Origin: an uncultured Gammaproteobacteria bacterium
GTDB taxonomy: Bacteria > Pseudomonadota > Gammaproteobacteria > Pseudomonadales > Azotimanducaceae_A
Direction: 5' to 3'
DNA: 28,952 nt
Assembly: GCA_913041025.1 (NCBI GenBank)
Contig: CAJWGQ010000012.1
Span: forward strand, 1 to 28,952
The notes below the pieces were generated by a model, which had not been told where the DNA came from, did not search any database, and saw nothing but the letters and a program-made list of their open reading frames with translations. This document shows, in pieces, positions 1 through 27,125 of the stretch. Position numbers and translations under genes: made by a program. Within the stretch, counting starts at the first letter, position 1. Every line of letters begins with the position of its first letter.

Positions 1-1834
1 TAGAGACCTCTAAGATATCGGGAGGCCAATGACCCGCATGAAGCGCGTTCAAGGTTTGACCGCCGTTCCTCTTGTTGACGACAAGGAGTGAGTGGGAAAA
101 GTCCGACTCCTTGAAGTCACGCTCAAAGTTGGCATTGTTTCTCGGAAAATAGTCTCCTTGAGGCCACCACCACATTTGCCCGCGAGTAGATGAGTACAGC
201 ACAAACTTTGTTAAAGAGTCTGTGATTATTCTGCGGACTTCACTTTGGCCCTGAATCTCGTCAACGACGTGGATCAGGTCTCTCCAAAGCCCGAGGCCGC
301 TACTTTTATCTACAGAGATCAAACTCGGAATTCGAGATGTTCTATTGAAATGTTGTTGTAGGGTCCAGGGCAGCATAGAAGCGAGCAAAACGGCCGATAC
401 GCTGATCGCTACAAATTGAGAGCGAATTGATTTGTTGGATTGATTCGCGAGATACAGCACTCCAAGCGTTGCAGCCATTGTTCCTAGGGGAATGAGGTAA
501 GCAGTACGCCATAGTCCGGTTGCTGGTCCAAAATGAAGAAATACAACAGCATAAAGCGGGTTCAGGTTAGTGAAGATTGGGACCAGCATTCCTGCGGTGA
601 GAAAGTCCGACCGAAGCATCCGCCGAAATCTGAATAGCCACAGTAGATATACGGCTAGACCGAAGTAGCCGATCGTATCCCAAAAGCGAAACCCAGGATT
701 ATCTAATGGAAGCCCGGACCCGATAGAAAGATACCGACCTAGATCAACGATATGGGGAGTGTGTTCCCAGGGATTAATCGAACGGGTGACAAGCGCATAG
801 ATGACCGTCAGCGCAAGACCAACCAGTATGACCTGCGCGCTAGTTCGGGTACGGAGCTGAAGTTCCCGTGGAAAATGTTCGGCATCGAAATATGTTCTGA
901 TTGCACGAACAAAAACGATAATGGATAAAAGAATTAGGGTGAGTAATGCCTCTTGAGCGTGGATCAAGTACATGATCACCAAAAACAGAGGTACTAGCAA
1001 TAGATTGCTACCCGTATTTTTGGGCCTTTGGAGATAGTCGAGCGCTAAAGCGGCGCTTGCAAAGATTAATGGGTATGCAAAGATTGTAGGGAAGTAGGCG
1101 TAATACCTCCCGTAAGCAAAACCCGCGGTGCCTAGCGAAATAAAGGTAAGTAGCGCTGCAGCAGAGGCGCCAATAAGCGTGACATTTTCCGAAAATCTAA
1201 ATCGGTCGAGGACGAGGAACGAAAAAAAGTAAGTGGTCGAGATAAAGATGCACCCTGTGAACAAAGAGACGCCACCTACCATCTCAAATGGTTGTTTACC
1301 CAACTGATGCGCGATTAACGCATGAATCAGGTAAATTGGGCTGGTAGTAAGACGTTCATAAATTGATCCACTGTGCTCGCCAAATTTGCCCGCCCCTAAA
1401 GCGGCAAACTCAATCCCGACCCTGGCTAGATGTTTCCATACGTCTGACGGGATCTCGGTGTACGCGCCAACATGAAAGTGGTAGACGGTGAAAGCACCAA
1501 GCAAGATCAATAACGCTTTCAGTTTGCGTTTTTCTTTGTTCTGCCATTTCAATCGAACGGTGGTACCCACCGCAGTCTGGCCACGACATTTATTAAGCAC
1601 CGTTACGATCAAGATTACCAAGGCAAAATGAAGTACCGCGAGAAAGGCCCACTTGCCCAGGCCGAGGAGATAGACCAAAGCCACTGATCCAACGATAATT
1701 GACAGGCTAAGAGCATATGAGAGTAAGAAGCGTTGTCTTTTGATGTCGAGCAATCGACAAAGCAGGTATCCGGTTACAAAAAAGTAGACGAAGTAGATGC
1801 CTGCGATTGCGAGATCAAATAAGACGCTATTCAT
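1..1834 (-). CDS. Large polytopic membrane protein, GT-C-like, 3' end outside the window
   Basis: I translated the reverse strand from the ATG at 1834-1832. The frame stays open for 611 codons to the window edge with no stop, so the C-terminus is missing. The protein starts with a hydrophobic segment at about residues 7-28, followed by many more membrane segments to about residue 460, then a mostly soluble tail. The first large loop carries D131-x-W-x-H135 followed by a 'TTSPIYLIHAL' stretch. An early acidic or His motif in the first extracytoplasmic loop is common in GT-C glycosyltransferases and related polymerases, but I do not recognise a named family. It is divergent from the EpsG-like gene, with 115 bp between the two starts. 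A role in polysaccharide assembly is inferred from fold type and context only; another membrane function is possible. Confidence 0.8.
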   Translation of the reverse strand, partial: MNSVLFDLAIAGIYFVYFFVTGYLLCRLLDIKRQRFLLSYALSLSIIVGSVALVYLLGLGKWAFLAVLHFALVILIVTVLNKCRGQTAVGTTVRLKWQNKEKRKLKALLILLGAFTVYHFHVGAYTEIPSDVWKHLARVGIEFAALGAGKFGEHSGSIYERLTTSPIYLIHALIAHQLGKQPFEMVGGVSLFTGCIFISTTYFFSFLVLDRFRFSENVTLIGASAAALLTFISLGTAGFAYGRYYAYFPTIFAYPLIFASAALALDYLQRPKNTGSNLLLVPLFLVIMYLIHAQEALLTLILLSIIVFVRAIRTYFDAEHFPRELQLRTRTSAQVILVGLALTVIYALVTRSINPWEHTPHIVDLGRYLSIGSGLPLDNPGFRFWDTIGYFGLAVYLLWLFRFRRMLRSDFLTAGMLVPIFTNLNPLYAVVFLHFGPATGLWRTAYLIPLGTMAATLGVLYLANQSNKSIRSQFVAISVSAVLLASMLPWTLQQHFNRTSRIPSLISVDKSSGLGLWRDLIHVVDEIQGQSEVRRIITDSLTKFVLYSSTRGQMWWWPQGDYFPRNNANFERDFKESDFSHSLLVVNKRNGGQTLNALHAGHWPPDILEVS

Positions 1835-3423: not shown

Positions 3424-3993
3424 ATGTTCGAAGAGTATGCGGCCAGATTGTCTTCCGTGCTGTCAAATTATGACTGGACCCCAGTCGAAAAGCTCGCAGC
3501 CGAAATTTTTAAATGTTGGGGTAGCCGTAAACAAGTAATCATCTGTGGAAACGGAGGCAGCGCCGGCAATGCGATACATCTGGCTAACGATTTTCTTTAC
3601 GGGATAGCAAGCAAAGTCACAGACCCCGGTCTCAGGGTTGAAGCACTACCTGCAAATAGTGCCGTGCTTACTTGCTTGGCGAACGATATTGGGTACGAGG
3701 AGGTTTTCGCCGAACAAGTTCGTGTCAAAGGAAATCAGGATGATCTCTTGATCGTTCTTTCTGGGAGCGGAAACTCGGAAAATATTGTGAGAGCACTTGA
3801 TGCTGCGAAGAGTATCGGTATGACGACTTGCGGAATTCTAGGCTATTCAGGCGGTAGTTGCTTGTCGCGTGTCGATATAGCTATTCATTTTCCGATAGAT
3901 GACATGCAGATCTCAGAAGATACCCAATTAATCGTTGGACACATGTGTATGCAGTACCTGTGCGGCAAAATCACGTCGCAAGAGCTCGACTAA
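3424..3993 (+). CDS. SIS-domain phosphosugar isomerase, GmhA-like
   Basis: This 189-residue single SIS domain is close in length to E. coli GmhA (192). It has the phosphate-binding loops CGNGGSAGN (41-49) and SGSGNSEN (113-120), and the conserved block LTCLANDIGYEEVF (82-95) seen in sedoheptulose-7-phosphate isomerases. GmhA converts sedoheptulose 7-phosphate to D-glycero-D-manno-heptose 7-phosphate in the cytoplasm. By hand alignment to E. coli GmhA, metal ligands H61 and H180 correspond to H52 and H173. E65 is replaced by D56, and Q172 appears to be replaced by E165, so specificity could differ from housekeeping GmhA. Its 3' end overlaps the longest reading of the ABC gene by 49 nt, which suggests co-transcription. 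Transketolase and an HldE-like kinase downstream support a heptose-type role. Confidence 0.85.
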   Translation: MFEEYAARLSSVLSNYDWTPVEKLAAEIFKCWGSRKQVIICGNGGSAGNAIHLANDFLYGIASKVTDPGLRVEALPANSAVLTCLANDIGYEEVFAEQVRVKGNQDDLLIVLSGSGNSENIVRALDAAKSIGMTTCGILGYSGGSCLSRVDIAIHFPIDDMQISEDTQLIVGHMCMQYLCGKITSQELD

Positions 3994-9405: not shown

Positions 9406-10194
9406 GTGTATAAAGAAAAAATCAGACCAAAATTAAAGAAACTGTACTGGTTTGGCAAGCAGCGATACTTCAATGTAGTCGATGCCTTTATTTCGAGTAG
9501 TCCAGCAGTTGCTGTTATTGGCTGCGGTCGAAGCGGAACTAATATGGTTTTGGAGATACTGTCGGGACATAGTGCTCTATGCCCAACTAGCCCTGATCCA
9601 GAAGACAAGCGTTTTTTCGTGAAAGGGAGACGATTCCCTCCCGGCTACTTGTCTAAGTGTGATACGGATTACGGCTCGACCGAATCATTGATCGCACTGT
9701 TGAGACTAAACTCGAGGCTGAAAATTGTCTGGACAATTCGTGATCCGCGGGATATTTGTCTTTCTAAACTACGTCGAGGGGTTCCAGAATCGGAAGGAGG
9801 AGATTGGATAAATCGATCGGAAGATAGCACGGATAGAGGGTGCATTAAATCGATAACAAAGATGTTCGAAATGTATCAGTGTGTGTCGTCAAAATTTTCG
9901 GGGAGAATCTATCTTGTGCGGATGGAAGACGTTATCAATGATGTGCCCGGCGAGTCAAAGAGATTGGCAGGGTTTTTGAACATAGAGTACCAGCCCGCGA
10001 TGGTTCATTTCCCACAGCGAATGCGTAATGAAAAAAAACGCGCCCGGTATGGCAATGAAGTTGATAAAGGGCAAGTCGGACTCTGGCATGATACTGAAAC
10101 CGTTTACGACGGGTTTTTCGCAGGCCAAGCCGAGCGTTTAGGGCTAATGTTCGATCGCCTTGACAGTGTAATTCACTATTTTGGATATAAATAG
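9406..10194 (+). CDS. Sulfotransferase family protein
   Basis: The protein has 262 residues. The PAPS 5'-phosphosulfate-binding loop is G-C-G-R-S-G-T (39-45) with the usual hydrophobic strand before it and an N-x-x-L-E-I-L helix after it. The 3'-phosphate-binding segment R112-D-P-R-D-x-x-x-S120 is also present. These are the two defining motifs of PAPS-dependent sulfotransferases. In a polysaccharide locus the likely acceptor is a sugar hydroxyl, but amine or lipid acceptors are possible. I see no PAPS synthesis genes here, so PAPS would come from central sulfate assimilation. The start is a GTG at 9406. An AAAGG at 9386-9390 is 15 bases away, too far for a normal ribosome binding site, so the start could be further in. 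Confidence 0.88.
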   Translation: MYKEKIRPKLKKLYWFGKQRYFNVVDAFISSSPAVAVIGCGRSGTNMVLEILSGHSALCPTSPDPEDKRFFVKGRRFPPGYLSKCDTDYGSTESLIALLRLNSRLKIVWTIRDPRDICLSKLRRGVPESEGGDWINRSEDSTDRGCIKSITKMFEMYQCVSSKFSGRIYLVRMEDVINDVPGESKRLAGFLNIEYQPAMVHFPQRMRNEKKRARYGNEVDKGQVGLWHDTETVYDGFFAGQAERLGLMFDRLDSVIHYFGYK

Positions 10195-12060: not shown

Positions 12061-13053
12061 ATGAAAAGTCTCGTGACAGGGGGAGCAGGGTTCATTGGTA
12101 GCCATCTAGTGGATGCATTGCTCAAGTTGGGTCATCAGGTAACGGTGCTGGATAACTTCAGTACTGGGAGACCAGAAAATGTAGAACACGTAAAGCATGA
12201 CATCGATCTTGTCGAGTGTGATATCGGTAAATGTAGTGGGTGGGAGAACTCATTTCGTGATGTTGATTGGGTTTTTCATCTGGCAGCGCTGGCAGATATT
12301 GTGCCTTCAATCCAAAATCCAAACGATTACTTCCGTTCTAACGTTGATGGAACATTTAATGTTCTCCAAGCAACTCGGGAATCAGAATGTGGGCGGTTTA
12401 TATATGTTGCCTCGTCGTCGTCTTACGGCCTGCCAAACATCTTTCCGACGCCCGAAACGGCCGATATAGATCCGCAGTATCCGTATGCGTTGACTAAATA
12501 TCTGGGAGAAGAGTTGGTGATGCATTGGGCAAAAGTTTATGAATTGCCTGCCGTGTCGTTACGGTTCTTTAATGTGTATGGGCCACGTTCCAGGACGTCC
12601 GGGACCTATGGTGCTGTGTTTGGAGTCTTTTTGGCTCAAAAACTTGCCAAAACTCCGTTCACGGTAGTTGGTGACGGGAGTCAGACGCGTGATTTCACCT
12701 ACGTTTCCGATATCGTAAAGGCGCTAATTACTGCCGCCGAGAGCTCTAAGACCAATGCGGTTTATAATGTGGGAAGCGGTGCAACTGTCTCCGTCAATCG
12801 GTTGGTGGAACTGCTTGGCGGCGAGAAAATCTTCATTCCAAAGCGACCGGGTGAACCAGACTGCACATTTGCGGATATCTCTAAAATTCAGACGGAACTG
12901 GATTGGCATCCTGAGATCGCAATAGAGCAGGGCGTGTCAGAATTGCTTGAGCACATTGAATATTGGCGGGACGCGCCGGTCTGGACGCCAGACGCTATTG
13001 CGACGGCGACAAAGGATTGGTTTCGATATTTAGGTAGTAGCGATTCCGGGTGA
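12061..13053 (+). CDS. NAD-dependent sugar epimerase/dehydratase (extended SDR, GalE-like)
   Basis: This 330-residue extended SDR has the Rossmann motif T-G-G-A-G-F-I-G (6-13), then L-D-N-F-S-T-G (30-36), the serine cluster at 118-121 and the catalytic pair Y142-x-x-x-K146. The L-D-N-F-S-T-G segment and the R-F-F-N-V-Y-G-P motif are typical of UDP-hexose 4-epimerases of the GalE/WbpP type rather than of HldD. It likely uses NAD to act on C4 of a nucleotide sugar in the cytoplasm. It is the first gene of a ten-gene operon: its stop shares GTGA with the start of the next gene, so the two are probably translationally coupled. Whether its substrate is a common UDP-sugar or the special sugar made by this operon cannot be told. 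Confidence 0.9.
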   Translation: MKSLVTGGAGFIGSHLVDALLKLGHQVTVLDNFSTGRPENVEHVKHDIDLVECDIGKCSGWENSFRDVDWVFHLAALADIVPSIQNPNDYFRSNVDGTFNVLQATRESECGRFIYVASSSSYGLPNIFPTPETADIDPQYPYALTKYLGEELVMHWAKVYELPAVSLRFFNVYGPRSRTSGTYGAVFGVFLAQKLAKTPFTVVGDGSQTRDFTYVSDIVKALITAAESSKTNAVYNVGSGATVSVNRLVELLGGEKIFIPKRPGEPDCTFADISKIQTELDWHPEIAIEQGVSELLEHIEYWRDAPVWTPDAIATATKDWFRYLGSSDSG

Positions 13054-13850
13054 GGGAAGTACGCGCACTGTTATTGGCCGCAGGTCTTGGGACAAGGCTT
13101 CGTCCTCTTACATCTTCCTGCCCGAAATGCTTAGTCCCTATTGGCGATAAGCCCCTGCTGGAGCATTGGCTTTGCAGTTTGCATTACAGTGGTATCTCAG
13201 AGGTACTGGTTAATATTCATCACCACAGGGAAATGGTCGAAACTTTCTTGTCGAGAGAGCCCTTCTCGGGATGGGTACATGGTGTCGTCGAAGATGAACT
13301 GCTAGGTACGGCAGGTACATTACGAAATAACCATCAATTTCTTGATAAGAGTACAGTGCTTTTGGTACATGCGGATAACTGGATACAGGCAGATCTGGTA
13401 GATTTTGTAGAATTTCACCAACACCAGCGTGCGCCTGGAACGGTGATGACGATGATGACCTTCCAGACCGATAGCCCTACGAGTTGCGGAATCATCGAGA
13501 CAGACGCGAAAGGCGTAGTTCGGAGATTTCATGAGAAAGTAACGAATCCCCCAGGCAACTTGGCAAATGGAGCTGTCTATCTTTTGGAGCCGGAAGTCTT
13601 GAATTGGGTCAGTCAGAATCCAGATGTGACGGATTTTAGTACCGAGGTGATTCCTAAGTTTTTGGGACGAATTGCAACCTGGGAAAACAAAGGAATTCAT
13701 CGGGATATTGGGGCTATCAACTCTCTTTTGATCGCACAAAGTGATCCCCAACCAGAATCTTGTTGGAGACAAGTAGATGCGTGGATGGAAAGCTATCTCG
13801 AGCATCCAGTCCATGAGTACCTCAGTAACACCCGGGCCAAAATTCAGTGA
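13050..13850 (+). CDS. Sugar-1-phosphate nucleotidyltransferase (RmlA/HddC-like)
   Basis: This 266-residue protein has the signature L-L-A-A-G-x-G-T-R-L-R-P-L-T (8-21) and the P-K26-C-L-V-P-I segment that binds the triphosphate and metal. A G-T-A-G-T-L block (86-91) follows, and the H-A-D109-N segment sits where the family has its metal aspartate. This family joins an NTP to a sugar 1-phosphate to give an NDP-sugar. The layout resembles HddC (GDP-D,D-heptose pathway) and mannose-1-phosphate guanylyltransferases, and the base cannot be fixed by eye. It starts with GTG at 13050 in a GTGA overlap, and its own stop overlaps the next gene in a second GTGA. The next gene carries another nucleotidyltransferase of a different fold, so the operon may make two activated sugars. 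Confidence 0.88.
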   Translation: MREVRALLLAAGLGTRLRPLTSSCPKCLVPIGDKPLLEHWLCSLHYSGISEVLVNIHHHREMVETFLSREPFSGWVHGVVEDELLGTAGTLRNNHQFLDKSTVLLVHADNWIQADLVDFVEFHQHQRAPGTVMTMMTFQTDSPTSCGIIETDAKGVVRRFHEKVTNPPGNLANGAVYLLEPEVLNWVSQNPDVTDFSTEVIPKFLGRIATWENKGIHRDIGAINSLLIAQSDPQPESCWRQVDAWMESYLEHPVHEYLSNTRAKIQ

Positions 13851-15391
13851 CTAGTATATTTCGTTTGAGTGAATTGGACTCAAAGACTCCTGATCAAATT
13901 CTTTTTGGCGCGACCGTGTGTTTCGGTCACTTTAATATCATTCACCCTGGGCACATTCGATATTTTCGTACTGCAAAAGAATATGGGCCGACTCTTGTAG
14001 TTGCTTTAGAGGGCGATGCTCAGTTGCCAGATGGGGAGCGGCATAATGTGTTCCCAGAGTGGGAGCGCGCACAGTCTTTAATCTCAATCGAGCTTATTGA
14101 TTTTGTCGTAATTCTGGATTCTGGTTCTCTTGAAGATTTTGTAAATCAGGTGAGAATTAAATCCTTGGTCCTCGGTAGGGAATTCGAAGAGATTCGTGCT
14201 CCCAAGGTAGCCGGGGCAGTTGGTGCGGTACAGGAATCAGGCGGGAAAGTGATTTACGATCCTGGAGAAACGCACTACGCCAGCGTTGAACTCTTCTCTC
14301 GATCAAAAGATGACCTTGAGAGGAGTCGTTGGGAGAATTTTGAGTCCACACTGAGATCCAACGATATCTCCTTGCCGAACCTCTTCGCGAGACTAAAAAA
14401 TGAACCTCCAGGGCATATCCTAGTTGTCGGCGATACGATCGTAGATCGTTACGTAGCCTGCGACCCGGTTGGTATGAGTAATGAAGCTCCCGTTGTGGTC
14501 GTAAAAGAGTTGGAGACCCGAGATTACATTGGTGGCGCGGCTATAGTCGCAGCGCACATCGCCGCGCTAGGTGCAAAAAGCACTTTAGTCTCCGTCACCG
14601 GTGAAGACGATTTAGCGAGTTTCTGTTCGGATAAGTTGAGCCGGGCTGGAGTCGACCCCATCTTGTTCCGTGATACAGGCCGCCCCACGACATTGAAGGT
14701 TCGGTACCTGGTAGAAAATCAGAAGCTATTCAGAGTAAGTCGACTAAAAGAGCACAGTCTAACCCGAGACCTTGAAGACCAGATAATTTCCCAAATTTCT
14801 GACCAAGCAGATAACGTGGATGGCATCTTAGTGAGCGACTTCGTTTACGGTGTCATTACGCCAAGGGTCTTGGATGAGATTCGTCGAATCGCAACTCAAA
14901 AAGAACTTTCTCTTTTTGGGGACTTGCAATGCAGCAGTCAAGTGGGCAATGTTCTTAAGTTTCAGGGCTTTTCACTTATTTGTCCTACAGAGCGGGAGGC
15001 GCGTATTGCGTTGGCTAATCATGATGATGGTGTTGAATATGTTGCAAACCTGCTCATCCAAAAAACGGCCAGCGCAAATACAATACTAAAGTTGGGCGCG
15101 GATGGCTTTATTGCCTACGAGGGTCCGAAGGATGATGAAGGTTTCTTGAAGAGACAGCATTTTCCGGCGCTCAGCGTTAATCCAGTAGATGTCACCGGCG
15201 CGGGAGATGCGTTGCTTGCAACAATGGCTCGTTGCATAAGTAGTGGTTTGTCAATCATAGAAGCATCAGCAGTCGCATGCTGCGTTTCAGCGATAGCGGT
15301 ACAGACTATTGGAAATAAGCCAATAGGACTTGGCCAAGCCGAGAAGTTTTACTCAAGTCAGCAGGAGTATCAAAAACAGAATGCAATTTAA
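13847..15391 (+). CDS. Nucleotidyltransferase-PfkB kinase fusion, HldE-like with reversed domain order
   Basis: This 514-residue bifunctional protein has an N-terminal cytidylyltransferase-fold domain (about 15-155), with the nucleotide-binding H33-P-G-H36 and the adjoining G-H-F-N-I-I strand. The C-terminal domain (about 188-505) is a ribokinase/PfkB kinase: it opens with V-V-G-D-T-I-V-D-R-Y, contains an I-G-G-A-A motif (228-232) and ends with D-V-T-G-A-G-D454, the catalytic aspartate loop. The kinase start closely resembles HldE heptose-7-phosphate kinase. E. coli HldE has the kinase first and the adenylyltransferase second, so the order here is swapped. The likely role is phosphorylation of a heptose phosphate at C1 and transfer of a nucleotide, giving an NDP-heptose-type donor. 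It starts with GTG in a 4-nt overlap with the previous gene. Confidence 0.9.
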   Translation: MTSIFRLSELDSKTPDQILFGATVCFGHFNIIHPGHIRYFRTAKEYGPTLVVALEGDAQLPDGERHNVFPEWERAQSLISIELIDFVVILDSGSLEDFVNQVRIKSLVLGREFEEIRAPKVAGAVGAVQESGGKVIYDPGETHYASVELFSRSKDDLERSRWENFESTLRSNDISLPNLFARLKNEPPGHILVVGDTIVDRYVACDPVGMSNEAPVVVVKELETRDYIGGAAIVAAHIAALGAKSTLVSVTGEDDLASFCSDKLSRAGVDPILFRDTGRPTTLKVRYLVENQKLFRVSRLKEHSLTRDLEDQIISQISDQADNVDGILVSDFVYGVITPRVLDEIRRIATQKELSLFGDLQCSSQVGNVLKFQGFSLICPTEREARIALANHDDGVEYVANLLIQKTASANTILKLGADGFIAYEGPKDDEGFLKRQHFPALSVNPVDVTGAGDALLATMARCISSGLSIIEASAVACCVSAIAVQTIGNKPIGLGQAEKFYSSQQEYQKQNAI

Positions 15392-16367
15392 GAATATCTT
15401 CGTGACTGGTGGAGCAGGCTATGTTGGCGCGGTTCTTGTGCCCAGACTATTAAGTGAAGGTTGCAATGTCACTGTGCTGGATCTGATGATTTACGGCGAA
15501 CAGGCTCTTACGCCGCACCCTAATCTGAAAATAATTAAAGGCGATATTCGTGACCAGATACTTCTAGCGGAAAGTGTAAGCGGCCATGATGCTGTTATTC
15601 ATCTTGCTTGCATCTCAAACGATCCGAGTTTTGAGCTGAATCCAGCGCTAGGTAAGTCGATTAATCTGGATGCGTTCGGACCATTGGTTGAAGTTAGCCG
15701 GGAGAACGGAGTTGCTCGATTTATTTATGCATCGTCCTCGAGTGTGTATGGAATAAAAGAGGAAAAAGATGTCCATGAGGAAATGTCACTTGAGCCGCTT
15801 ACGGACTACTCAAGGTTTAAAGCAGACTGCGAGACAACGCTAAACGAGGCCGAGAATCCAAATTTTGTACCCGTCACGATTCGTCCAGCTACGGTGTGCG
15901 GCTATTCACCCCGTCAACGACTCGATGTAGTTGTAAACATTTTGACCAATCTTGCTTATCACAAGGGTGAGATCACGGTTTTTGGTGGCGAGCAGTTGCG
16001 GCCCAACATTCATATCAGTGATATGGTTGAGTCTTACATCACTGTCCTCAGAGCTGAAGATAAACAGGTATCGGGTCAAATATTTAATGCGGGGTACGAG
16101 AATCAACCCGTGAGGGAGTTGGCAGAAACTGTGCGCGCGGTAGTCGGCGAGCATGTCGAGCTGTGCACAACCCCAACAGACGATAACCGCTCATATCACA
16201 TATCCTCCGAAAAGATCAAAAAACACCTTGGATTCACGGCTAAATATACGATTCGCCAGGCGGTGGAGGATTTGGTGCAGGCATTCAAGGCGGGAGATTT
16301 GCCTGACTCCCTAGAAAACGAGCTTTATTTCAATATCCGAAGAATGCAGTCATTGAAGTTGGTTTGA
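15381..16367 (+). CDS. NAD-dependent epimerase/dehydratase (second extended SDR)
   Basis: The protein is 328 residues from the ATG at 15381. That start gives an 11-nt overlap with the upstream gene and places the Rossmann motif T-G-G-A-G-Y-V-G (9-16) at the usual distance from the N-terminus; a longer frame from 15330 would overlap by 62 nt. The Ser cluster (118-121) and Y143-x-x-x-K147 complete an extended SDR active site. A R-P-A-T-V-C-G-Y-S-P segment stands where sugar epimerases have R-x-x-N/T-x-x-G. Expected substrates are NDP-sugars, by epimerisation, dehydration or reduction. It follows the HldE-like fusion, where an ADP-heptose epimerase would fit functionally, but it lacks obvious HldD-specific features. 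The next gene starts two bases after its stop region. Confidence 0.88.
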   Translation: MQFKNIFVTGGAGYVGAVLVPRLLSEGCNVTVLDLMIYGEQALTPHPNLKIIKGDIRDQILLAESVSGHDAVIHLACISNDPSFELNPALGKSINLDAFGPLVEVSRENGVARFIYASSSSVYGIKEEKDVHEEMSLEPLTDYSRFKADCETTLNEAENPNFVPVTIRPATVCGYSPRQRLDVVVNILTNLAYHKGEITVFGGEQLRPNIHISDMVESYITVLRAEDKQVSGQIFNAGYENQPVRELAETVRAVVGEHVELCTTPTDDNRSYHISSEKIKKHLGFTAKYTIRQAVEDLVQAFKAGDLPDSLENELYFNIRRMQSLKLV

Positions 16368-16368
16368 T

Positions 16369-17994
16369 ATGCACATTGGGCTGGATTTTGACAACACCAT
16401 AGCCTGCTACGACCAATCATTTATCAAAGCTGCGACGGGTCGAAATCTTTTGCCTCCCAACTGGTCGGGCGGCAAGCGGGCGTTACGGGACTTCCTCAGG
16501 AACAAAGGCGACGTTGGAGAACAGGAGTGGCAAGCCCTTCAGGGTCGGGTTTACGGGAAGTTGATGCCGGAGGCCGAGCTAAAGCCAGGTGTAGGGTGGT
16601 TCCTTTTATTCTGCAAGGCCCGGAAGATCCCACTATCTATCGTCAGTCACAAGACAGAATATAGTCCGAAAGATCCAGCGCGTATCCCTCTTCGATCGGC
16701 TGCACTGCAATGGATGACGGCTAAGGGGTTCTTCGGTTCCCATGTTTACGGCCTCAAAGAGGATAAGATTTTTTTCGAATCAACCCGTCGTCAAAAGGTC
16801 GAGCGAATAAAGTCTCTTGGCTGTACGCATTTTGTTGATGATTTGCTTGAGGTGTTTCAAGAGGAGAATTTCCCGCGCGACGTTGAAAAGCTTCTCTACG
16901 ACCCAGAGGATTTAGACCAACAATCTACCGGATCGATAGACGTCCACAATAGTTGGTCTTCCATTGGCAATAGTCTGTTGGGTGCCGAAACGCATGCCGA
17001 ACTTGGTGTGATTGTGAGAGGGGTGGTGCCGAAAGAAACCATCCAAGAATGTGTGCCGATCTCACCAGGGGGAAACAGTACGGTTTTTAAGTTATGCCTC
17101 TCGGATAAATCGGAAAATTTGCTTAAGCGTTATCCTCAAGAAATAGCAGTCAACCGAAGTCGGTTGAAAACGGAAGTGTCAGCGTGCCGACTGCTACGAA
17201 CAGTCGGGATTGAGCAGCCAGCAGAGGTGATTTATGAGGATGTCGAAAATGAGATCGCGGTTTTTAGATGGATCGATGGGAGCAGAGTAGCTAATCCGAA
17301 AGCAAAGCATATTGAATCCTTGCTGCAGTTTGTCGAGGAGCTAAGAAATATCAAGAGAACCGATGAGGTTCATGCGTTTCCGAGCGCCAAGGAAGCATGC
17401 CTTAGTGGTCAAGACATTTGTGACCAGATCCAGAACCGTCGTGACAGATTAGGGCGACGCGAGATAAAATCTGAGGAACTGAAGACGTTCTTGAGCCAGA
17501 TCTTTGATCCCCTGGTTGCCAAGACTATTGCATGGGCTCAAGAAGAGTGGCCTGCCGGGCGCAGTTTTTTTGAGCCACTTCCAAGGAAGTTCCAAACCCT
17601 CAGCCCCTCTGATTTCGGATTCCATAATGCATTATGGGAGAGGTCGGGGAAACTTCGTGTAGTAGATCTGGAGTACTTTGGTTGGGACGATCCAGTAAAA
17701 CTGGCTTCCGATTTTTGCTGGCACCCTGCTATGAAAATACCGCAGCGCTTGCAGCAAAAATGGATTTTGGGTATGCGTCAGCTGTTTTCTAGCGATCAGG
17801 ATTTTGAAAATCGGCTTACAATTGCACATCCTCTTTATGGTCTCAGGTGGGCGATGATCGTGTTGAAGCCTTTTTTCTCGAAAGGCGGGCGAATGGCTGG
17901 CCGTGATCAACTCCTACAAGACCGACTATGTAAATCAAGATCGTTTTGTGACGATGTACGCAACTGGGTAGACCGTGGCCATCAACAGTTCTAG
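16369..17994 (+). CDS. HAD phosphatase-like domain fused to APH-type kinase domain
   Basis: This 541-residue protein has two domains. The N-terminal HAD-like domain (1-185) has motif I D6-F-D8-N-T, a serine in S-I-V-S93-H as motif II and D157-D158 in motif IV, so the phosphatase residues look intact. The C-terminal domain (about 220-535) resembles aminoglycoside/choline phosphotransferases. It has a G-G-N-S-T-V-F nucleotide loop (234-240), K253 as the likely ATP lysine, a catalytic segment D415-x-x-x-x-N420 and the metal aspartate D433 in V-V-D-L-E. The His usually two residues before the catalytic Asp is Pro413. In this operon the HAD part could remove a phosphate from a sugar bisphosphate, as GmhB does, and the kinase could phosphorylate a sugar or lipid. 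Both substrates are unknown. Confidence 0.82.
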   Translation: MHIGLDFDNTIACYDQSFIKAATGRNLLPPNWSGGKRALRDFLRNKGDVGEQEWQALQGRVYGKLMPEAELKPGVGWFLLFCKARKIPLSIVSHKTEYSPKDPARIPLRSAALQWMTAKGFFGSHVYGLKEDKIFFESTRRQKVERIKSLGCTHFVDDLLEVFQEENFPRDVEKLLYDPEDLDQQSTGSIDVHNSWSSIGNSLLGAETHAELGVIVRGVVPKETIQECVPISPGGNSTVFKLCLSDKSENLLKRYPQEIAVNRSRLKTEVSACRLLRTVGIEQPAEVIYEDVENEIAVFRWIDGSRVANPKAKHIESLLQFVEELRNIKRTDEVHAFPSAKEACLSGQDICDQIQNRRDRLGRREIKSEELKTFLSQIFDPLVAKTIAWAQEEWPAGRSFFEPLPRKFQTLSPSDFGFHNALWERSGKLRVVDLEYFGWDDPVKLASDFCWHPAMKIPQRLQQKWILGMRQLFSSDQDFENRLTIAHPLYGLRWAMIVLKPFFSKGGRMAGRDQLLQDRLCKSRSFCDDVRNWVDRGHQQF

Positions 17995-18811
17995 GTTCGA
18001 TACTCCGTTAGACTCGAGATCACGCTACCTGCGGTCTCTCATCGTCCGAGGTCTTATAGGAGGCAATCGGGGTCATCTAGGATCTTCAATGTCTCTCGTT
18101 GAGATTCTACGAGTGTTGTTCGATAGTTTTCTGAAGTATCGACCCAGTGAGCCAGGCTGGGAGGAACGAGATCGATGCATTCTTTCAAAAGGTCACGGCT
18201 GTCTAGCGCTCTATGCGCTTTTGGCTGACAAGGGCTTTTTTCCTACCGAGGCACTCGATCAGTTCTGCGGCAGTGACGGAATCCTTGGCGGTCATCCAGA
18301 GTCGGGAAAGGTTCCCGGGGTTGAGGCATCGACCGGCGCTTTAGGTCATGGATTACCTATTGGCGTAGGCATGGCGCTCGCTGGCCGTATCCGTAGTAAG
18401 CGGTACAGAGTCACTGTCGTCACTGGAGATGGGGAAATCAATGAAGGTTCAAACTGGGAAGCAGCGATGTCGGCCGCAAAGCATCGATTGGAAAACTTGA
18501 GTGTATTTATAGACTACAACAAACTTCAGTCTTACGGCTCGACGAAAGAAGTTTGTGATCTTGAGCCGTTGGCGGATAAATGGGAAAGTTTTGGGTTTTC
18601 CGTCAGAGAGGTTAATGGTCATGACGTCGACCTCCTTGAATCGTGTGTGAATGATTTACCGTTCGAAGCCAATAAGCCAAGCGCCGTTATTTGTCACACA
18701 GTGAAAGGGAAAGGATTCGAATTTGCTGAAGGACGACCTGAGTGGCATCACAAGTCTCGATTTAGTGCCGAGGACATAAGCCGAATTCACACGGCTCTTG
18801 AAGATCAGTAA
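17975..18811 (+). CDS. Transketolase, N-terminal (TPP diphosphate-binding) subunit
   Basis: This 278-residue protein has the length of the N-terminal half of a split transketolase. It has the early G-G-N-x-G-H-L-G-S segment (29-37), S-K-G-H-G (71-75), G-H-P-E (106-109), and the TPP motif starting G-D-G-E (151-154) and ending about 30 residues later in D-Y-N-K (180-183). It pairs with the next gene to form the full enzyme. Transketolases move two-carbon ketol units; one such reaction yields sedoheptulose 7-phosphate, the substrate of GmhA. It starts with GTG at 17975, overlapping the HAD-APH gene by 20 nt, and its stop and the next start share TAATG. A dedicated transketolase inside a sugar operon may supply a precursor or may act on a nucleotide sugar. 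Confidence 0.93.
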   Translation: MAINSSRFDTPLDSRSRYLRSLIVRGLIGGNRGHLGSSMSLVEILRVLFDSFLKYRPSEPGWEERDRCILSKGHGCLALYALLADKGFFPTEALDQFCGSDGILGGHPESGKVPGVEASTGALGHGLPIGVGMALAGRIRSKRYRVTVVTGDGEINEGSNWEAAMSAAKHRLENLSVFIDYNKLQSYGSTKEVCDLEPLADKWESFGFSVREVNGHDVDLLESCVNDLPFEANKPSAVICHTVKGKGFEFAEGRPEWHHKSRFSAEDISRIHTALEDQ

Positions 18812-19740
18812 TGCGCCGTACGTGCCTTGATTGCGTGTTCGATCTTGCTTCGCAGGATGAGCGGGTCTTATTTGTCGGGTCAGACCTCGGCCCGGGTGTT
18901 CTGGAGCAGATGAAGAATGAGTTCCCAGAGCGATGGATCATGGAGGGGGTTGCAGAGCAGCATGTTGTCGGCATGGCGGCGGGGCTTGCCATGGAGGGCT
19001 TCATACCTTATGTCAACACTATTGCAACCTTTTTTAGTCGTCGAAGCTATGAGCAGGTATTGCTAGACCTGTGTCTTCATAAGTTACCGGTACGCCTGAT
19101 TGCAAATGGGGGGGGCGTTGTATATGCGCCACTGGGACCCACCCATCTGGCGACAGAGGACATTGCGATACTTCGGTGTATCCCGAATATGACAATTGTC
19201 GCCCCGTGTGATGCTGAAGAGATGAAACGGTTTATGAGTGCCTCCCTAACGTGGCCTGAACCAATATATATTCGACTCGCAAAGGGCGGGGATCCAGTAG
19301 TAAGTCGCTCCGAACATAAATTTGAAATTGGCAAGGCGATAATGCTCAGGCAGCCCGGGAAGGCTCTTTTTGTCTCAACAGGCGTCATGACTCAGAGGGC
19401 TTTGGAAGCCACGGAAAAACTGGAAAAAACAGGCATCAGTGCTGGTGTTTTGCACTGTCATACAGTCAAGCCGTTTGACCGTGACAAGTTGCTGAGTTCC
19501 TTAGTTGGAGTAGACCTCGTAATTACAGTGGAAGAGCATACGCTGATTGGAGGGCTGGGCAGTTTAGTTTTGGAAACATTGAATTCTGCCGGACATGAAG
19601 CGATTACTAAAGTTGTACGGTTGGGCATTCCGGACGAGTTTGCTCCAGAATACGGATCACAAGATAGTTTGCTGAATCGGTGGGGGCTCGACAGTGACTC
19701 GCTTGCCAACTGCGTAATCTCAAGATTGGCAGCAAAGTAA
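18811..19740 (+). CDS. Transketolase, C-terminal (pyrimidine-binding) subunit
   Basis: This 309-residue protein supplies the other half of the split enzyme. E49 in G-V-A-E-Q-H is the conserved glutamate that activates the TPP pyrimidine ring. It is followed by M-A-A-G-L-A and a T-x-F-x-x-R segment (about 73-78). A P-L-G-P-T-H-L-A-T-E-D stretch is typical of small transketolase-like subunits and DXP synthase. A transketolase C-terminal domain (about 185-305) contains V-E-E-H-x-x-x-G-G-L-G. It should assemble with the upstream subunit as an alpha2beta2 complex, with the active site between the two chains. The start overlaps the previous stop by one base, which would help 1:1 synthesis. Pyruvate dehydrogenase E1 beta is a related fold but fits less well. 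Confidence 0.93.
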   Translation: MRRTCLDCVFDLASQDERVLFVGSDLGPGVLEQMKNEFPERWIMEGVAEQHVVGMAAGLAMEGFIPYVNTIATFFSRRSYEQVLLDLCLHKLPVRLIANGGGVVYAPLGPTHLATEDIAILRCIPNMTIVAPCDAEEMKRFMSASLTWPEPIYIRLAKGGDPVVSRSEHKFEIGKAIMLRQPGKALFVSTGVMTQRALEATEKLEKTGISAGVLHCHTVKPFDRDKLLSSLVGVDLVITVEEHTLIGGLGSLVLETLNSAGHEAITKVVRLGIPDEFAPEYGSQDSLLNRWGLDSDSLANCVISRLAAK

Positions 19741-19753
19741 AAATTTTCACAGC

Positions 19754-20557
19754 ATGAATGATAGCTTAGAATTTCTGGAGCCTGCGGAGAGGGAACTTCA
19801 AAATGAGTTTCTAACAAACGGTTTTGTTATTCGTCCCGTTGAGAATTATGAAGCGCTTGAAGAACTTCGTGATAGTGTCGTGGAAGCGGCATCAGTTTTT
19901 CTCGGTGTTCAATCGACAGATCAAGATGACTTTCTCAATCATATTCATCAGGCGGTCTCTGCAGATAAGCTCAATGAACTGCGGTTGGATGTGCTCGAGA
20001 AAATCAACTCATCCAAAGCGATAAGACCACAGTACTACTCGATGGCCCGCAGTCTTTTGTCGTCGCTTGTAGGCAATGAATTGGCGATGCAGAATCGTTT
20101 GAATCTAAGCATTCAACTCCCCCAAGATGAGGGCTCTTTGTTGCCCATCCATGCCGACGTTTGGTCCGGTGATTCACCCTATGAAGCCGTCGTGTGGCTG
20201 CCGTTAGTTGATTGTTATCGTTCAAAGAGTATGTTTTTGCTGCCTCCTGCGGCGACACAGTCACTGCATCAAAACTTTTCCCATTATTCCGAGAAAAGCA
20301 GTGAGGATCTCTTCCGAGACTTTAAGGAAGAACTGAGATGGATAGAGATCAAATATGGCAGCGTTCTGGTATTTAATCAGAACCTACCCCATGGCAATCG
20401 TGTCAATCAGGAGTCAGAGACACGATGGTCACTCAACTGTAGATTTAAGTCTCTTTTTTCACCTTACGGCGATAAAAAGCTCGGTGAGTTTTTTTCCCCC
20501 ATCACATTAAGGCCCGCGTCGAAAATCGGTATGGAATACAGCTTTCCTAAGACATAG
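19754..20557 (+). CDS. 2OG-Fe(II) oxygenase of sporadic-carbohydrate-cluster type
   Basis: This 267-residue protein matches the jelly-roll 2-oxoglutarate/Fe(II) oxygenase pattern. H133-x-D135 is the first metal pair, H213 is the distal histidine in N-L-P-H-G-N, and an Arg about ten residues on (R224 or R230) is in position to bind 2-oxoglutarate. From memory it resembles the family named 'sporadic carbohydrate cluster 2OG-Fe(II) oxygenase', and the next gene strengthens this match. Such enzymes hydroxylate or otherwise oxidise their substrates with O2; here a sugar, nucleotide sugar or lipid-linked glycan is likely. It lies 13 bp after the transketolase pair and 10 bp before the LIC12192-type gene, within the operon. 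No good ribosome binding site is seen before the ATG at 19754. Confidence 0.82.
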   Translation: MNDSLEFLEPAERELQNEFLTNGFVIRPVENYEALEELRDSVVEAASVFLGVQSTDQDDFLNHIHQAVSADKLNELRLDVLEKINSSKAIRPQYYSMARSLLSSLVGNELAMQNRLNLSIQLPQDEGSLLPIHADVWSGDSPYEAVVWLPLVDCYRSKSMFLLPPAATQSLHQNFSHYSEKSSEDLFRDFKEELRWIEIKYGSVLVFNQNLPHGNRVNQESETRWSLNCRFKSLFSPYGDKKLGEFFSPITLRPASKIGMEYSFPKT

Positions 20558-20567
20558 TGTTAGATCA

Positions 20568-20984
20568 ATGGGCTTTCGAGGATACATTTCCAGTCGACCG
20601 TTTGGGGGACAGCGAGTGCCTCAGCATATTCAGAATCTCGTCATCCGCGATTACTGTAAACGTAGACAGCTCAACTATCTGCTGAGCGCGACCGAATTAG
20701 CAATGCCCGAGACTTATCTCATGCTAGCGCAATTGCGGGAACAGGTTGAAGAGATTGATGGGGTTGTGTTCTATAGTATTGAGCAGCTTCCAACGGAAGA
20801 AGGGGATCGGTCAGAATTTTTTTCGCGAATGATCTCAACTAGACGTGTTAGTCATTTCGCGGTTGAAGACTTATGTATATCTGATTTTCAGGACCTGGAG
20901 CGATTGGAGCAATTATTTCGAATTAAACGGGTAATGCCCAACTGCTTATCGACCGAAGTCCTTCGCCAGGTAAAGTTGAATTAG
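20568..20984 (+). CDS. LIC12192-type 'sporadic carbohydrate cluster' protein, function unknown
   Basis: This 138-residue soluble protein begins M-G-F-R-G-Y-I-S-S-R-P-F, with V-P-Q-H-I-Q-N-L-V-I-R-D-Y-C at 17-30. From memory this start is characteristic of the 'sporadic carbohydrate cluster protein, LIC12192 family' (TIGR04323-like), first named from Leptospira. The biochemical role is not known to me. No membrane segment, metal motif or nucleotide loop is evident. The central part (about 60-75) is an alternating hydrophobic and acidic stretch that could be a small alpha/beta fold. It sits between the 2OG oxygenase and the methyltransferase genes, with a 10-bp gap before it and none after, so it is probably part of the same pathway. 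It is either a small enzyme or a partner subunit. Confidence 0.78.
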   Translation: MGFRGYISSRPFGGQRVPQHIQNLVIRDYCKRRQLNYLLSATELAMPETYLMLAQLREQVEEIDGVVFYSIEQLPTEEGDRSEFFSRMISTRRVSHFAVEDLCISDFQDLERLEQLFRIKRVMPNCLSTEVLRQVKLN

Positions 20985-21653
20985 ATGGTGGGTGAGCAAC
21001 TAAGCATTGTTACTGCGCTCCACGAATCGACCGCCAGGGATTACCTTGCTCGGATGGTTGATAATAAAGTCGAGTGCATGGATGTCGCCCAGGCCTACGG
21101 AGCCGAATACTGGGACGGGGACCGCCGATTTGGTTATGGAGGCTACTCTTATATACCCGGACGATGGGCGCCGGTGGCGCGAGCGCTTATAGACAGGTAT
21201 GCGCTTTCTCAGAGCTCGTCTGTCTTGGATGTCGGTTGCGGAAAAGCGTTCCTGTTGCATGAAATGAAATGTCTCTTGCCAGAATTGAACGTTGTAGGAT
21301 TCGATATATCGAGCCATGGTATCGATGACTCGAGGCCAGAAGTTCGCGAATCCCTGTTTATCCACCGCGCACAGGATGAGTTCCCGTTTCGTGATGACAG
21401 TTTTGATCTTGTGATCTCTCTGGGTTGCTTGCACAACCTGAAATTGCCGGAGTTGCAGGTTGCGGTTTCAGAGATACAAAGAGTCGGGCGGAAAGGGTAT
21501 TTGATGGTCGAAAGTTATCGCAATAACGCGGAACTCTTCAATCTGCAGTGCTGGGCTCTTACCGCTCAGTCGTTCCTTGATCCTGAGGAATGGAAATGGC
21601 TCTATGGTGAGCTCGGGTATAACGGAGACTATGAATTCATTTTTTTTAGTTGA
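20985..21653 (+). CDS. Class I SAM-dependent methyltransferase
   Basis: This 222-residue protein has methyltransferase motif I L-D-V-G-C-G-K-A-F (81-89), the acidic loop D107 after strand 2 (V-V-G-F-D-I-S), and the post-I to motif IV segment F-P-F-R-D-D-S-F-D-L-V-I-S (near 125-140). An N-terminal cap of about 60 residues, rich in Tyr, Trp and Gly, may hold the substrate. It likely transfers a methyl group from SAM to a sugar hydroxyl, amine or carbon of the glycan precursor. Its ATG directly follows the TAG of the LIC12192-type gene; a GTG one codon later is an alternative. It closes the ten-gene operon, since a 69-bp gap precedes the next gene. Confidence 0.87.
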   Translation: MVGEQLSIVTALHESTARDYLARMVDNKVECMDVAQAYGAEYWDGDRRFGYGGYSYIPGRWAPVARALIDRYALSQSSSVLDVGCGKAFLLHEMKCLLPELNVVGFDISSHGIDDSRPEVRESLFIHRAQDEFPFRDDSFDLVISLGCLHNLKLPELQVAVSEIQRVGRKGYLMVESYRNNAELFNLQCWALTAQSFLDPEEWKWLYGELGYNGDYEFIFFS

Positions 21654-25450: not shown

Positions 25451-26590
25451 ATGACGGACGAACTCTTTAGCCAACCCGTACTCAAAAACGCTAAGGTAGC
25501 GTTTCGGGATCTTCGTGTTTTGGATCCCTCCTTGAGAGAGACCCTGCTTCAATCCTTTGAAGAAGTCTTGAAAAATGGCCCAGTCCTGATGGGGCCTCGA
25601 GTAGAACATTTCGAAAGACGTATCGCGGCGTACTGCGACCGTTCGCAGGCAGTAGGCGTAGCCTCAGGAACCTGCGCGCTTTACCTTGGCCTACGCGCTT
25701 TAGGGATTGGGTCGGGAGATGAATTGATAACAACTCCGATGTCATGGGTTGCCACATTAAATGCCATCTTGATGACCGGGGCGACACCAATTTTCGTGGA
25801 CGTGGGGGAGGATCAAAACATCAACCCGACGCTTATCGAATCTGCGATAACACAGAACACACGCGGAATATTGGCAGTCCACTTTACCGGTCGTCTCTGC
25901 GACATGACAGCACTTTCGCAAATCGCGAAAAAACATAACTTACTGATTATCGAAGACGCAGCCCAAGCGTTAGGAGCAAAACGTAAAAACTATAAAGCGG
26001 GCTCGTCAGGGGATGTTGCCGCATTCAGTTTGAATCCGATGAAGGTATTCCCGGGATACGGCGAAGCTGGAGCGTTGCTGACCGATGACGACGCAGTAGC
26101 TGAAAGAGCACGTGTGCTTCGTTATCTTGGTACGGAGCGTAAAGAGGTTTGTGTTGATGTTTCTTTGAATCACAAGATGGATGAACTGCAAGCGGCGTTG
26201 TTGCTGCATGGCTTTGACCAAATCGACGCTGTGGTGGAAAAAAGGATAGAAATGGCACGTAGATACTCAGCTAACCTATCGGGTGTGGTTGGTGTTCCGA
26301 AAGTGCCCCTAGATAGTGACGTATCAAGCAATTTTTTTGATTACGTGATTTTCTCGACACGGCGTGATTCACTGCGATCCTATCTTCACGCCCATGGTGT
26401 CGAGACCAAAGTAAAGCACCCAGTATTGTTGTGCGACCACCCGGTTTACCAGTGCCAGCCGAGACCAGCGATTCCGGTAGCGGATCGCTTGGTGAGTCAG
26501 ATGCTTAGCCTGCCTCTCCACGAAAAAATGGAAAGGTCGGATGTCGACTATGTTTGTCAAGTGATCAGTGATTTTTCAAATGCCGGCTGA
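25451..26590 (+). CDS. DegT/DnrJ/EryC1/StrS-family PLP sugar aminotransferase
   Basis: This 379-residue fold-type I PLP enzyme has G-P-R-V-E-H-F-E (48-55) near the N-terminus, S-G-T-C-A-L (72-77) for phosphate binding, the aspartate D169 in I-I-E-D-A-A-Q and the Schiff-base lysine K198 in S-L-N-P-M-K. The G-Y-G-E-A-G-A segment that follows is typical of the family. These enzymes aminate a keto group of a nucleotide sugar, usually with glutamate as donor. No matching NDP-sugar 4,6-dehydratase is adjacent, so the keto substrate must come from an SDR in the operon or from elsewhere in the genome. It overlaps the WbuC-like gene, so the two are likely co-translated. Confidence 0.93.
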   Translation: MTDELFSQPVLKNAKVAFRDLRVLDPSLRETLLQSFEEVLKNGPVLMGPRVEHFERRIAAYCDRSQAVGVASGTCALYLGLRALGIGSGDELITTPMSWVATLNAILMTGATPIFVDVGEDQNINPTLIESAITQNTRGILAVHFTGRLCDMTALSQIAKKHNLLIIEDAAQALGAKRKNYKAGSSGDVAAFSLNPMKVFPGYGEAGALLTDDDAVAERARVLRYLGTERKEVCVDVSLNHKMDELQAALLLHGFDQIDAVVEKRIEMARRYSANLSGVVGVPKVPLDSDVSSNFFDYVIFSTRRDSLRSYLHAHGVETKVKHPVLLCDHPVYQCQPRPAIPVADRLVSQMLSLPLHEKMERSDVDYVCQVISDFSNAG

Positions 26591-27125
26591 CTGGGACAGT
26601 TTTCGACCTCTTTCGAAAGAGGTGTATGCGCCTGACGGTCAAGTCACGAAACTGTCTAAGGCCGTGCTCGCCAAGTTGCGAGACCAAGCGCTCGCTGCTC
26701 CTGCAAAGAAGTCCCGGATATTGTTGCATGGAGATCCAGAAAATGATCTTCATGAGATGGTCATCACGCATACACGAGATACGTATATTCGTCCCCATAT
26801 TAACGAGACATCAGCGAAAAGTTTCCTTGTAGTGGATGGTAAGATCGTCGTCTGCTACTTCGATCAACGCGGCAATGTGACAGATCGGTTCTTGTTGCAG
26901 GAGGTGTGTGGAGGGGGCGACTTCTTTCTTCGGTTTGAGCGACCGGTTTTTCATACCATTGTTGTTCTCAGTGACACTGTGACATTCATCGAGACAATTC
27001 GAGGCCCACATCGCGAGACGAAGTATGCGCCATTTGCGCCTGCGTCCGAGGATGAAAAAGCAGGTGATTATTTTGCGACGCTCGAGCAGGATTCAAGAAA
27101 CTGGCTTGGTTCGCAAGGCGTTTGA
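26580..27125 (+). CDS. wbuC: WbuC-family cupin-fold metalloprotein
   Basis: The protein is 181 residues from the ATG at 26580. It has a cupin barrel with I-R-P-H-x-N-E-T-S-A-K-S-F (about 78-90) and a later F-H-T-I-V-V-L motif, the pattern of the WbuC family found in O-antigen clusters. The exact reaction of WbuC is not established to my knowledge; cupins often bind metal and act on sugars. The ATG gives an 11-nt overlap with the aminotransferase gene. A GTG at 26568 would add four residues and a 23-nt overlap; neither has a clear ribosome binding site. Pairing with the aminotransferase suggests a shared amino-sugar substrate. Confidence 0.85.
   Translation: MPADWDSFRPLSKEVYAPDGQVTKLSKAVLAKLRDQALAAPAKKSRILLHGDPENDLHEMVITHTRDTYIRPHINETSAKSFLVVDGKIVVCYFDQRGNVTDRFLLQEVCGGGDFFLRFERPVFHTIVVLSDTVTFIETIRGPHRETKYAPFAPASEDEKAGDYFATLEQDSRNWLGSQGV

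Follow-up and report, generated by a model that had tools for sequence, protein, structure and literature searches.

A widespread, sporadically distributed gene cassette, probably for an uncharacterised bacterial surface sugar, contains a split transketolase with an altered acceptor site

A ten-gene operon in a 28,952-nucleotide stretch of DNA from an uncultured gammaproteobacterium (contig CAJWGQ010000012.1, analysed whole and hereafter called the window) is one version of a cassette, conserved among bacteria, that probably builds an uncharacterised sugar of the cell surface. Gene neighbourhoods and genome comparisons lend good support to the view that this cassette is a widespread, sporadically distributed and modular set for making an unusual nucleotide-activated sugar of surface glycans. 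As to the sugar itself, we tentatively suggest a C2-branched nucleotide heptose formed by hydroxyacetyl transfer, a possibility to which we give somewhat less than even odds. New here are the rebuilt acceptor site of the cassette transketolase, its link to a predicted C4-dehydrogenase (SDR2), the serine-recombinase fold without catalytic residues of the LIC12192 protein, and the association of a separate nucleotidyltransferase (NTP) with one subtype of the cassette kinase.

The ten genes occupy positions 12061-21653 on the same strand, with spacing that ranges from a 20-nucleotide overlap to a 13-nucleotide gap, just as a sequence-only reading of the window had described. The operon, together with a relevant isomerase gene that lies outside it, reads as follows.

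12061..13053, + strand: SDR1, an extended short-chain dehydrogenase/reductase (SDR) of the GalE / nucleoside diphosphate (NDP)-sugar epimerase type (PF01370, 202 bits)
13050..13850, + strand: NTP, a sugar-1-phosphate nucleotidyltransferase (PF00483, 128 bits)
13847..15391, + strand: CT-kinase, a fusion of an N-terminal cytidylyltransferase-like (CT) domain with a PfkB HldE-type kinase (TIGR02198, TIGR02199)
15381..16367, + strand: SDR2, a predicted NDP-sugar C4-dehydrogenase (closest PDB sequence 6vo6/6vo8)
16369..17994, + strand: HAD-APH, a HAD phosphatase-like domain (residues ~1-200) fused to an APH-fold kinase (~205-541)
17975..18811, + strand: TKN, the N-terminal (PP) subunit of a split transketolase (PF00456, 154 bits)
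18811..19740, + strand: TKC, the C-terminal (Pyr + C) subunit of the split transketolase, with a rebuilt acceptor site (GGG..YAPLGPTH) (PF02779/PF02780)
19754..20557, + strand: 2-oxoglutarate (2OG)-Fe(II) oxygenase of TIGR04324 (SpoChoClust_2; 335.2 bits, cut-off 150)
20568..20984, + strand: LIC12192 protein of TIGR04323 (SpoChoClust_1; 131.1 bits, cut-off 55), with a serine-recombinase catalytic-domain fold
20985..21653, + strand: MT, an S-adenosylmethionine-dependent methyltransferase (Pfam Methyltransf_31/25/11)
3424..3993, + strand, outside the operon: SIS, a GmhA-like SIS-domain ketose-phosphate isomerase (gmhA profile, SIS_2)

For SDR2 we prefer the ATG at 15381 to the TTG at 15330 that begins the listed open reading frame (ORF).

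To survey the cassette we kept 80 of 180 oxygenase relatives from one-per-species genomes and added two IMG/VR contigs, giving 82 loci; many contigs are short, so that absences in these loci make the counts lower bounds. ORFs clustered de novo were dominated in GC-rich loci by antisense shadow ORFs, and the families counted are those anchored in the window or obvious enzymes. Relatives of the window proteins were found for LIC12192 in 81 of the 82 loci, for MT in 70, TKC in 62, TKN in 57, SDR2 in 53, CT-kinase in 50, HAD-APH in 45, SDR1 in 43, SIS in 37 and NTP in 17. The order CT-kinase, (SIS), SDR2, HAD, APH, TKN, TKC, oxygenase, LIC12192, methyltransferase recurs, whole or in large parts, in alpha-, beta- and gammaproteobacteria, cyanobacteria, Acidimicrobia and others, judging from record titles. 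The oxygenase and LIC12192 genes adjoin one another in all 81 measurable loci, TKN and TKC in 57 of 58, LIC12192 and MT in 61 of 70, and TKC and the oxygenase in 53 of 63, while HAD-APH adjoins a TKN of at least 55% identity in 45 of 47. Thus the neighbourhood comparison across 82 loci and several phyla favours the earlier claim that these genes travel together. The further claim of a self-contained sugar pathway needs refining: the set is modular rather than strictly self-contained, some genomes carrying parts of it elsewhere on the contig or on other contigs.

The assignment of the oxygenase and the LIC12192-type protein to the "sporadic carbohydrate cluster" families is borne out by both profiles, which the two proteins match far above the curated cut-offs; the one-line descriptions of these models name the families only and give no reaction, product or partners. 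The two families co-occur at the level of whole genomes. Among 289 alphaproteobacterial genomes, TIGR04323 exceeded its cut-off in 22 and TIGR04324 in 22, with 21 common to both and 23 having either (Fisher 1e-29); leaving aside six genomes already known as suppliers of loci, the counts were 16, 16 and 15 with both. The exact transketolase motif occurred in 19 of the 289, and 16 of these had TIGR04324. Only 4 of 194 genomes of the cyanobacterial phylum contained TIGR04324 over its cut-off, so the distribution is truly sporadic, within an oxygenase family that numbers 3526 proteins (E<=0.001) out of 4649 candidates. Searches of plasmids for the oxygenase (E<=1e-20) and of phages for LIC12192 (E<=0.001) returned zero matches. 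Oxygenase-LIC12192 pairs did occur on the two IMG/VR contigs classed as viral (L081, L082), where phage cargo and misclassified host DNA are both possible. In one open-access library, we found no paper naming the TIGR04323 or TIGR04324 families, recognisably describing the same gene set or identifying the cassette sugar, in line with the earlier reading of the pathway as uncharacterised.

The transketolase was numbered by alignment to E. coli TktA. Our alignments excluded minus-strand proteins, those with query coverage of 60% or less and those without a usable start, and included the window protein in each; the loci aligned were 57 of 62 for TKC, 55 of 57 for TKN, 50 of 53 for SDR2 and 41 of 50 for CT-kinase. 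The donor and cofactor residues are kept, with H26, H66, H100 and H261 in 56/56 N chains and E411 and H473 in 57/58 C chains. The acceptor side of the C chains is changed: S385G in 54/58, H461G in 58/58, E468P in 55/58, D469L in 56/58 and R520K in 55/58. Measured against transketolase EC 2.2.1.1, the cassette enzyme therefore possesses the thiamine diphosphate/donor set and lacks the acceptor phosphate/hydroxyl set S385, H461, D469 and R520, of which D469 presumably contacts the acceptor hydroxyl in the E. coli enzyme. Protein engineering has targeted the same positions. H461 is normally tied to phosphate binding of natural substrates, and H461S, R520V and D469T/A improve the use of non-phosphorylated acceptors (PMC3657141, in the text available); S385 contacts phosphate groups, and S385Y/D469T/R520Q concludes a stepwise shift in acceptor, from phosphorylated compounds to aromatic ones (PMC5073344, likewise). 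With its acceptor site rebuilt, the transketolase is unlikely to be a simple supplier of sedoheptulose 7-phosphate.

The H461G/D469L pair was absent from four split transketolases of other contexts. In those of L116, L117 and L118, residue 461 is Leu and residue 469 is Tyr; all three have SDR-type genes as neighbours, two also lie next to TRAP-transporter genes, and they are perhaps catabolic. The full cassette signature was present in all eight signature enzymes of a further set of fetched stretches and in one Solidesulfovibrio plasmid copy. A LIC12192 match was found in none of those eight stretches and an oxygenase (36%) only in L109. HAD or APH genes adjoin 8 of these 9 signature enzymes, the ninth, L107, beginning at a contig end; hence the transketolase signature goes with HAD-APH partners. 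The plasmid, pDCAR1 of Solidesulfovibrio carbinolicus (L115, 3067-19000), encodes two split transketolases. One lies in a pse-type cluster; the other, with HAD and APH genes as neighbours, has the cassette signature, and its N-subunit gene is missing from the plasmid gene table.

SDR2 accompanies the signature transketolase even in genomes with neither the oxygenase nor the LIC12192 family over cut-off. It retains the motifs RxR(L/M)D and YxxxK in 51/51 sequences, the longer SPRxRLD being present in only 16/51. Three genomes with the transketolase motif and with both TIGR04323 and TIGR04324 below cut-off (G068, G240, G285) encode an SDR2 at 54-56% identity; G065 has one at 55% and five other signature genomes (G038, G303, G305, G306, G308) at 58-59%, whereas matches in nine control genomes did not exceed 36%. 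Because those five were known beforehand to have SDR2, the fresh tests are G068, G240 and G285, and largely also G065. The best PDB sequence match of SDR2 is 6vo6/6vo8 with 141 bits, followed by an entry with 88; we take 6vo6/6vo8 to be Cj1427, a heptose C4-dehydrogenase. The leading PDB sequence matches of SDR1 are NAD-dependent epimerases/dehydratases.

The remaining activation enzymes resemble those of heptose pathways. The window SIS scores 110 bits with NCBIfam gmhA (cut-off 209) and matches Pfam SIS_2, and in other loci its relatives belong to the cassette or lie close to it. It and its aligned relatives have Asp where E. coli GmhA has E65, which we assume to be catalytic; the C-terminal His is invariant in one 11-sequence alignment and is Ser in L052, in another alignment. 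The CT-kinase matches TIGR02198 at residues 190-493 (189.5 bits, cut-off 345) and TIGR02199 at 26-140 (54.2 bits, cut-off 181.5), and its best PDB sequence match is the heptose 7-phosphate kinase 4e84. It falls outside the HldE bifunctional enzymes, its domain order being reversed relative to E. coli HldE and both scores lying below the cut-offs. HAD and APH occur as a fusion in 14 loci and as separate ORFs in 26. In structure searches N-acetylhexosamine 1-kinases are as close to the APH half as any other kinase; the putative HAD half had zero PDB sequence matches at E<=1, and the structure-search matches listed do not cover it.

Two subtypes of CT-kinase could be told apart, CK10 (that of the window and of 12 other loci) and CK35 (38 loci). 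A separate NTP at 38-55% identity was present in 11 of the 12 CK10 loci, whereas the CK35 loci gave NTP matches of only 26-28%, in 3 of 38. The window CT domain keeps the HPGH motif and has a degenerate second motif, YASVELF, against the SSSSLIN-type motif of CK35; other CK10 sequences range from FSSIDLI to YSSADFL, pointing to graded loss. We infer from these sequences that the separate NTP gene may replace a failing CT domain. NTP itself is mannose-1-phosphate guanylyltransferase-like, with every NCBIfam score below cut-off; with the profile of the heptose-1-phosphate guanylyltransferase HddC (NF049965) it reached 72.8 bits, short of the cut-off of 300.

These observations suggest the following route. 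The SIS isomerase, the HldE-type kinase and the HAD domain would convert a ketose phosphate, probably sedoheptulose 7-phosphate, to heptose 1-phosphate, which the separate NTP would activate in place of the degenerate cytidylyltransferase domain. SDR2 would then oxidise C4 to a ketone, and the split transketolase, its donor site intact and its acceptor site rebuilt, might transfer a two-carbon (C2) hydroxyacetyl group to the new carbonyl, so that a branched NDP-sugar of nine carbons results. The finishing steps may fall to SDR1, the methyltransferase and the oxygenase together with LIC12192, its constant partner. The gene set, its recurring order, the co-occurrence and the residue changes are read directly from sequence, and from them we infer the chemistry of the whole route. 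We lean towards a branched sugar because of the residue changes, the distant SDR match, the genome co-occurrence and a precedent that is itself unproven (PMC12247030).

Several observations weigh against this route. The transketolase retains R358 in 58/58 chains and, with R520K, could still admit a negatively charged or even phosphorylated acceptor. The split transketolase of the Solidesulfovibrio pse-type cluster keeps H461, D469 and R520, yet has S385G and E468P as in the cassette. Blocks of HAD, APH and transketolase genes stand without heptose genes in the fetched stretches of L106, L108 and L115, and the APH kinase lacks an obvious place in the route. The SIS protein is only 25% identical to E. 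coli GmhA. SDR2 is only distantly like 6vo6, though this is its closest solved sequence by a wide margin and we only presume it to be Cj1427. The transketolase-SDR2 divergence correlation (r 0.53-0.54) is below that of oxygenase and SDR2 (r 0.80). Finally, several oxygenase-LIC12192 loci have no adjacent 50%-class transketolase. Of 18 genomes without one directly upstream of the oxygenase, 11 have one (52-62%) elsewhere: in L005 inside the locus on the opposite strand, in G203, G296, G303, G306 and G308 farther along the same contig, and in five on other contigs. The rest comprise G010, with only a 39% version, and six with only 29-33% matches or none. Seven further genomes with TIGR04323 or TIGR04324 and no exact motif have transketolases at 51-54% in three, 37% in three and 33% in one.

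In another scheme, a free (dephosphorylated) aldose is extended at C1 by the transketolase, and the NahK-like APH kinase phosphorylates the resulting linear higher ketose so that it can be activated, with no branch being formed. We think this unlikely: the change of D469 to Leu in nearly all C chains would be odd for a hydroxyaldehyde acceptor, given the role we assume for that residue, and linear elongation leaves the genome-wide link between transketolase and SDR2 unexplained. A doubtful alternative, which we hold about as improbable, is that at least two independent modules (NDP-heptose oxidation; HAD-APH-transketolase; oxygenase-LIC12192) make or decorate separate sugars within a single glycan, their joint travel reflecting no more than shared glycan loci. 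Modules do stand apart in some genomes, DegT aminotransferases enter the gene order in a subset, and the divergence of the two transketolase chains correlates better mutually (r 0.92) than with the other proteins (0.44-0.62). In contrast, genome co-occurrence persists without adjacency, the gene order recurs across phyla, and the oxygenase-SDR2 correlation crosses the supposed border between modules. An ordinary heptose pathway with a transketolase that only boosts the supply of sedoheptulose 7-phosphate would accommodate the SIS, HldE-type kinase, HAD and nucleotidyltransferase proteins, which fit known heptose routes, as well as a nearby GT9 heptosyltransferase-like gene (6142-7185), but it is very improbable since most of the acceptor-site residues that serve phosphorylated aldehydes are gone and a separate transketolase- or DXS-type ORF (30-35%, 600-740 residues, the two kinds not being distinguished) is present in 13 of the 18 and 6 of the 7 genomes above.

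The cassette has partial counterparts among known systems. We take the Campylobacter heptose kinase to be of the GHMP family, unlike the PfkB kinase of the cassette, which is fused to a CT domain. In the GDP-heptose capsule pathway of Campylobacter jejuni, the isomerase, 1-kinase, 7-phosphatase, nucleotidyltransferase and C4-dehydrogenase-like SDR all have cassette counterparts, and Cj1427 is the C4-dehydrogenase oxidising GDP-heptose (PMC10680097). The cassette adds to these the split transketolase, 2OG oxygenase, LIC12192 and APH kinase; the main text of that paper never uses the word transketolase. Relative to the E. coli HldE/ADP-heptose system, both HldE domains are recognisable, albeit in reversed order, with scores below cut-off and, in the window, with a degenerate CT domain. 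The split-gene transketolase of Carboxydothermus hydrogenoformans (PMC7661550; PDB 6yaj/6yak) shares the two-chain architecture and provides the best PDB sequence matches, yet it keeps S385, H461, E468, D469 and R520, all five of which are changed in the cassette enzyme. For miharamycin and amipurimycin, split-gene transketolases have been proposed, without proof, to attach a hydroxyacetyl branch to keto sugars; there too a split transketolase comes with a preceding oxidoreductase, although the setting is that of Streptomyces antibiotic clusters and the likeness is by description only (PMC12247030, in the text available).

Of the two proteins of the "sporadic carbohydrate cluster" families, the oxygenase carries its presumed facial triad, H133, D135 and H213, and R224, which we take to bind 2OG, in 82/82 aligned proteins. 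The residue before the distal His varies, and a simple pattern accordingly matched 39/82 where the aligned columns gave 82/82. The oxygenase had 0 PDB sequence matches at E<=0.1.

The predicted model of LIC12192 adopts the catalytic-domain fold of serine recombinases, residues 2..128 being superposed on 2..125 of 2gm5 in a structure search. By sequence alone no convincing PDB or Pfam relative emerged, the PDB matches having E values of 0.27 and 0.54. Among the 13 Pfam families matched at E<=1 was Pox_F16, weakly, by 4 of the 51 members with E 0.015 at best; we understand F16 to be an inactive recombinase relative, which agrees with a recombinase-like fold but proves little. Position 10, which we take to be the catalytic Ser in gamma-delta resolvase numbering, is Arg in 81/82; of the other positions aligned with presumed catalytic Arg residues, 72 is Phe and 73 Met/Gln in most proteins, and 76 is mixed, most often Glu. 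We therefore reject an active recombinase, the catalytic Ser and Arg being absent at the aligned positions. LIC12192 shares its fold and a weak profile similarity with the serine recombinases/resolvases (PF00239), and differs from them further in that its 138 residues leave no room for a DNA-binding domain. Since a different set of conserved residues lies near the same pocket of the fold, a role in catalysis or as a partner that binds a ligand is more likely for LIC12192 than one as a DNA enzyme.

The 82 loci assign a large oxygenase family to a surface-sugar cassette, as yet uncharacterised, whose hosts are mainly environmental bacteria, SAR11, cyanobacteria, Acidimicrobia and Azospirillum among them. 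Should the transketolase indeed put a branch on a keto sugar, evolution would have altered by itself the positions that engineers changed by hand, S385, H461, D469 and R520; the LIC12192 result, for its part, would mean that a DNA-recombinase fold was recruited into carbohydrate chemistry. We regard it as unlikely, though worth stating, that both parts hold in full, that is, that C2-branched higher-carbon NDP-sugars are made from NDP-4-keto-heptose across many phyla and that a serine-recombinase fold has turned carbohydrate enzyme, paired with a 2OG oxygenase.

Genes downstream of the operon in the window also have relatives near the cassette elsewhere.

25451-27125: a DegT aminotransferase and WbuC-type cupin pair
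27159-28388: a TIGR04372 glycosyltransferase (198.8 bits, cut-off 45)

Relatives of the TIGR04372 protein are present in 19 of the 82 cassette loci and one lies downstream of the Solidesulfovibrio transketolase block, so this protein may be the glycosyltransferase for the cassette sugar. DegT relatives occur close to the cassette in 24 of the 82 loci and WbuC-type cupin relatives in 18, and in some loci two DegT genes stand between SDR2 and the transketolase. Upstream of the operon, the GT9 heptosyltransferase-like gene adjoins the SIS/ABC-transporter pair, and a sulfotransferase-family gene (9406-10194) lies among glycosyltransferase-like genes.

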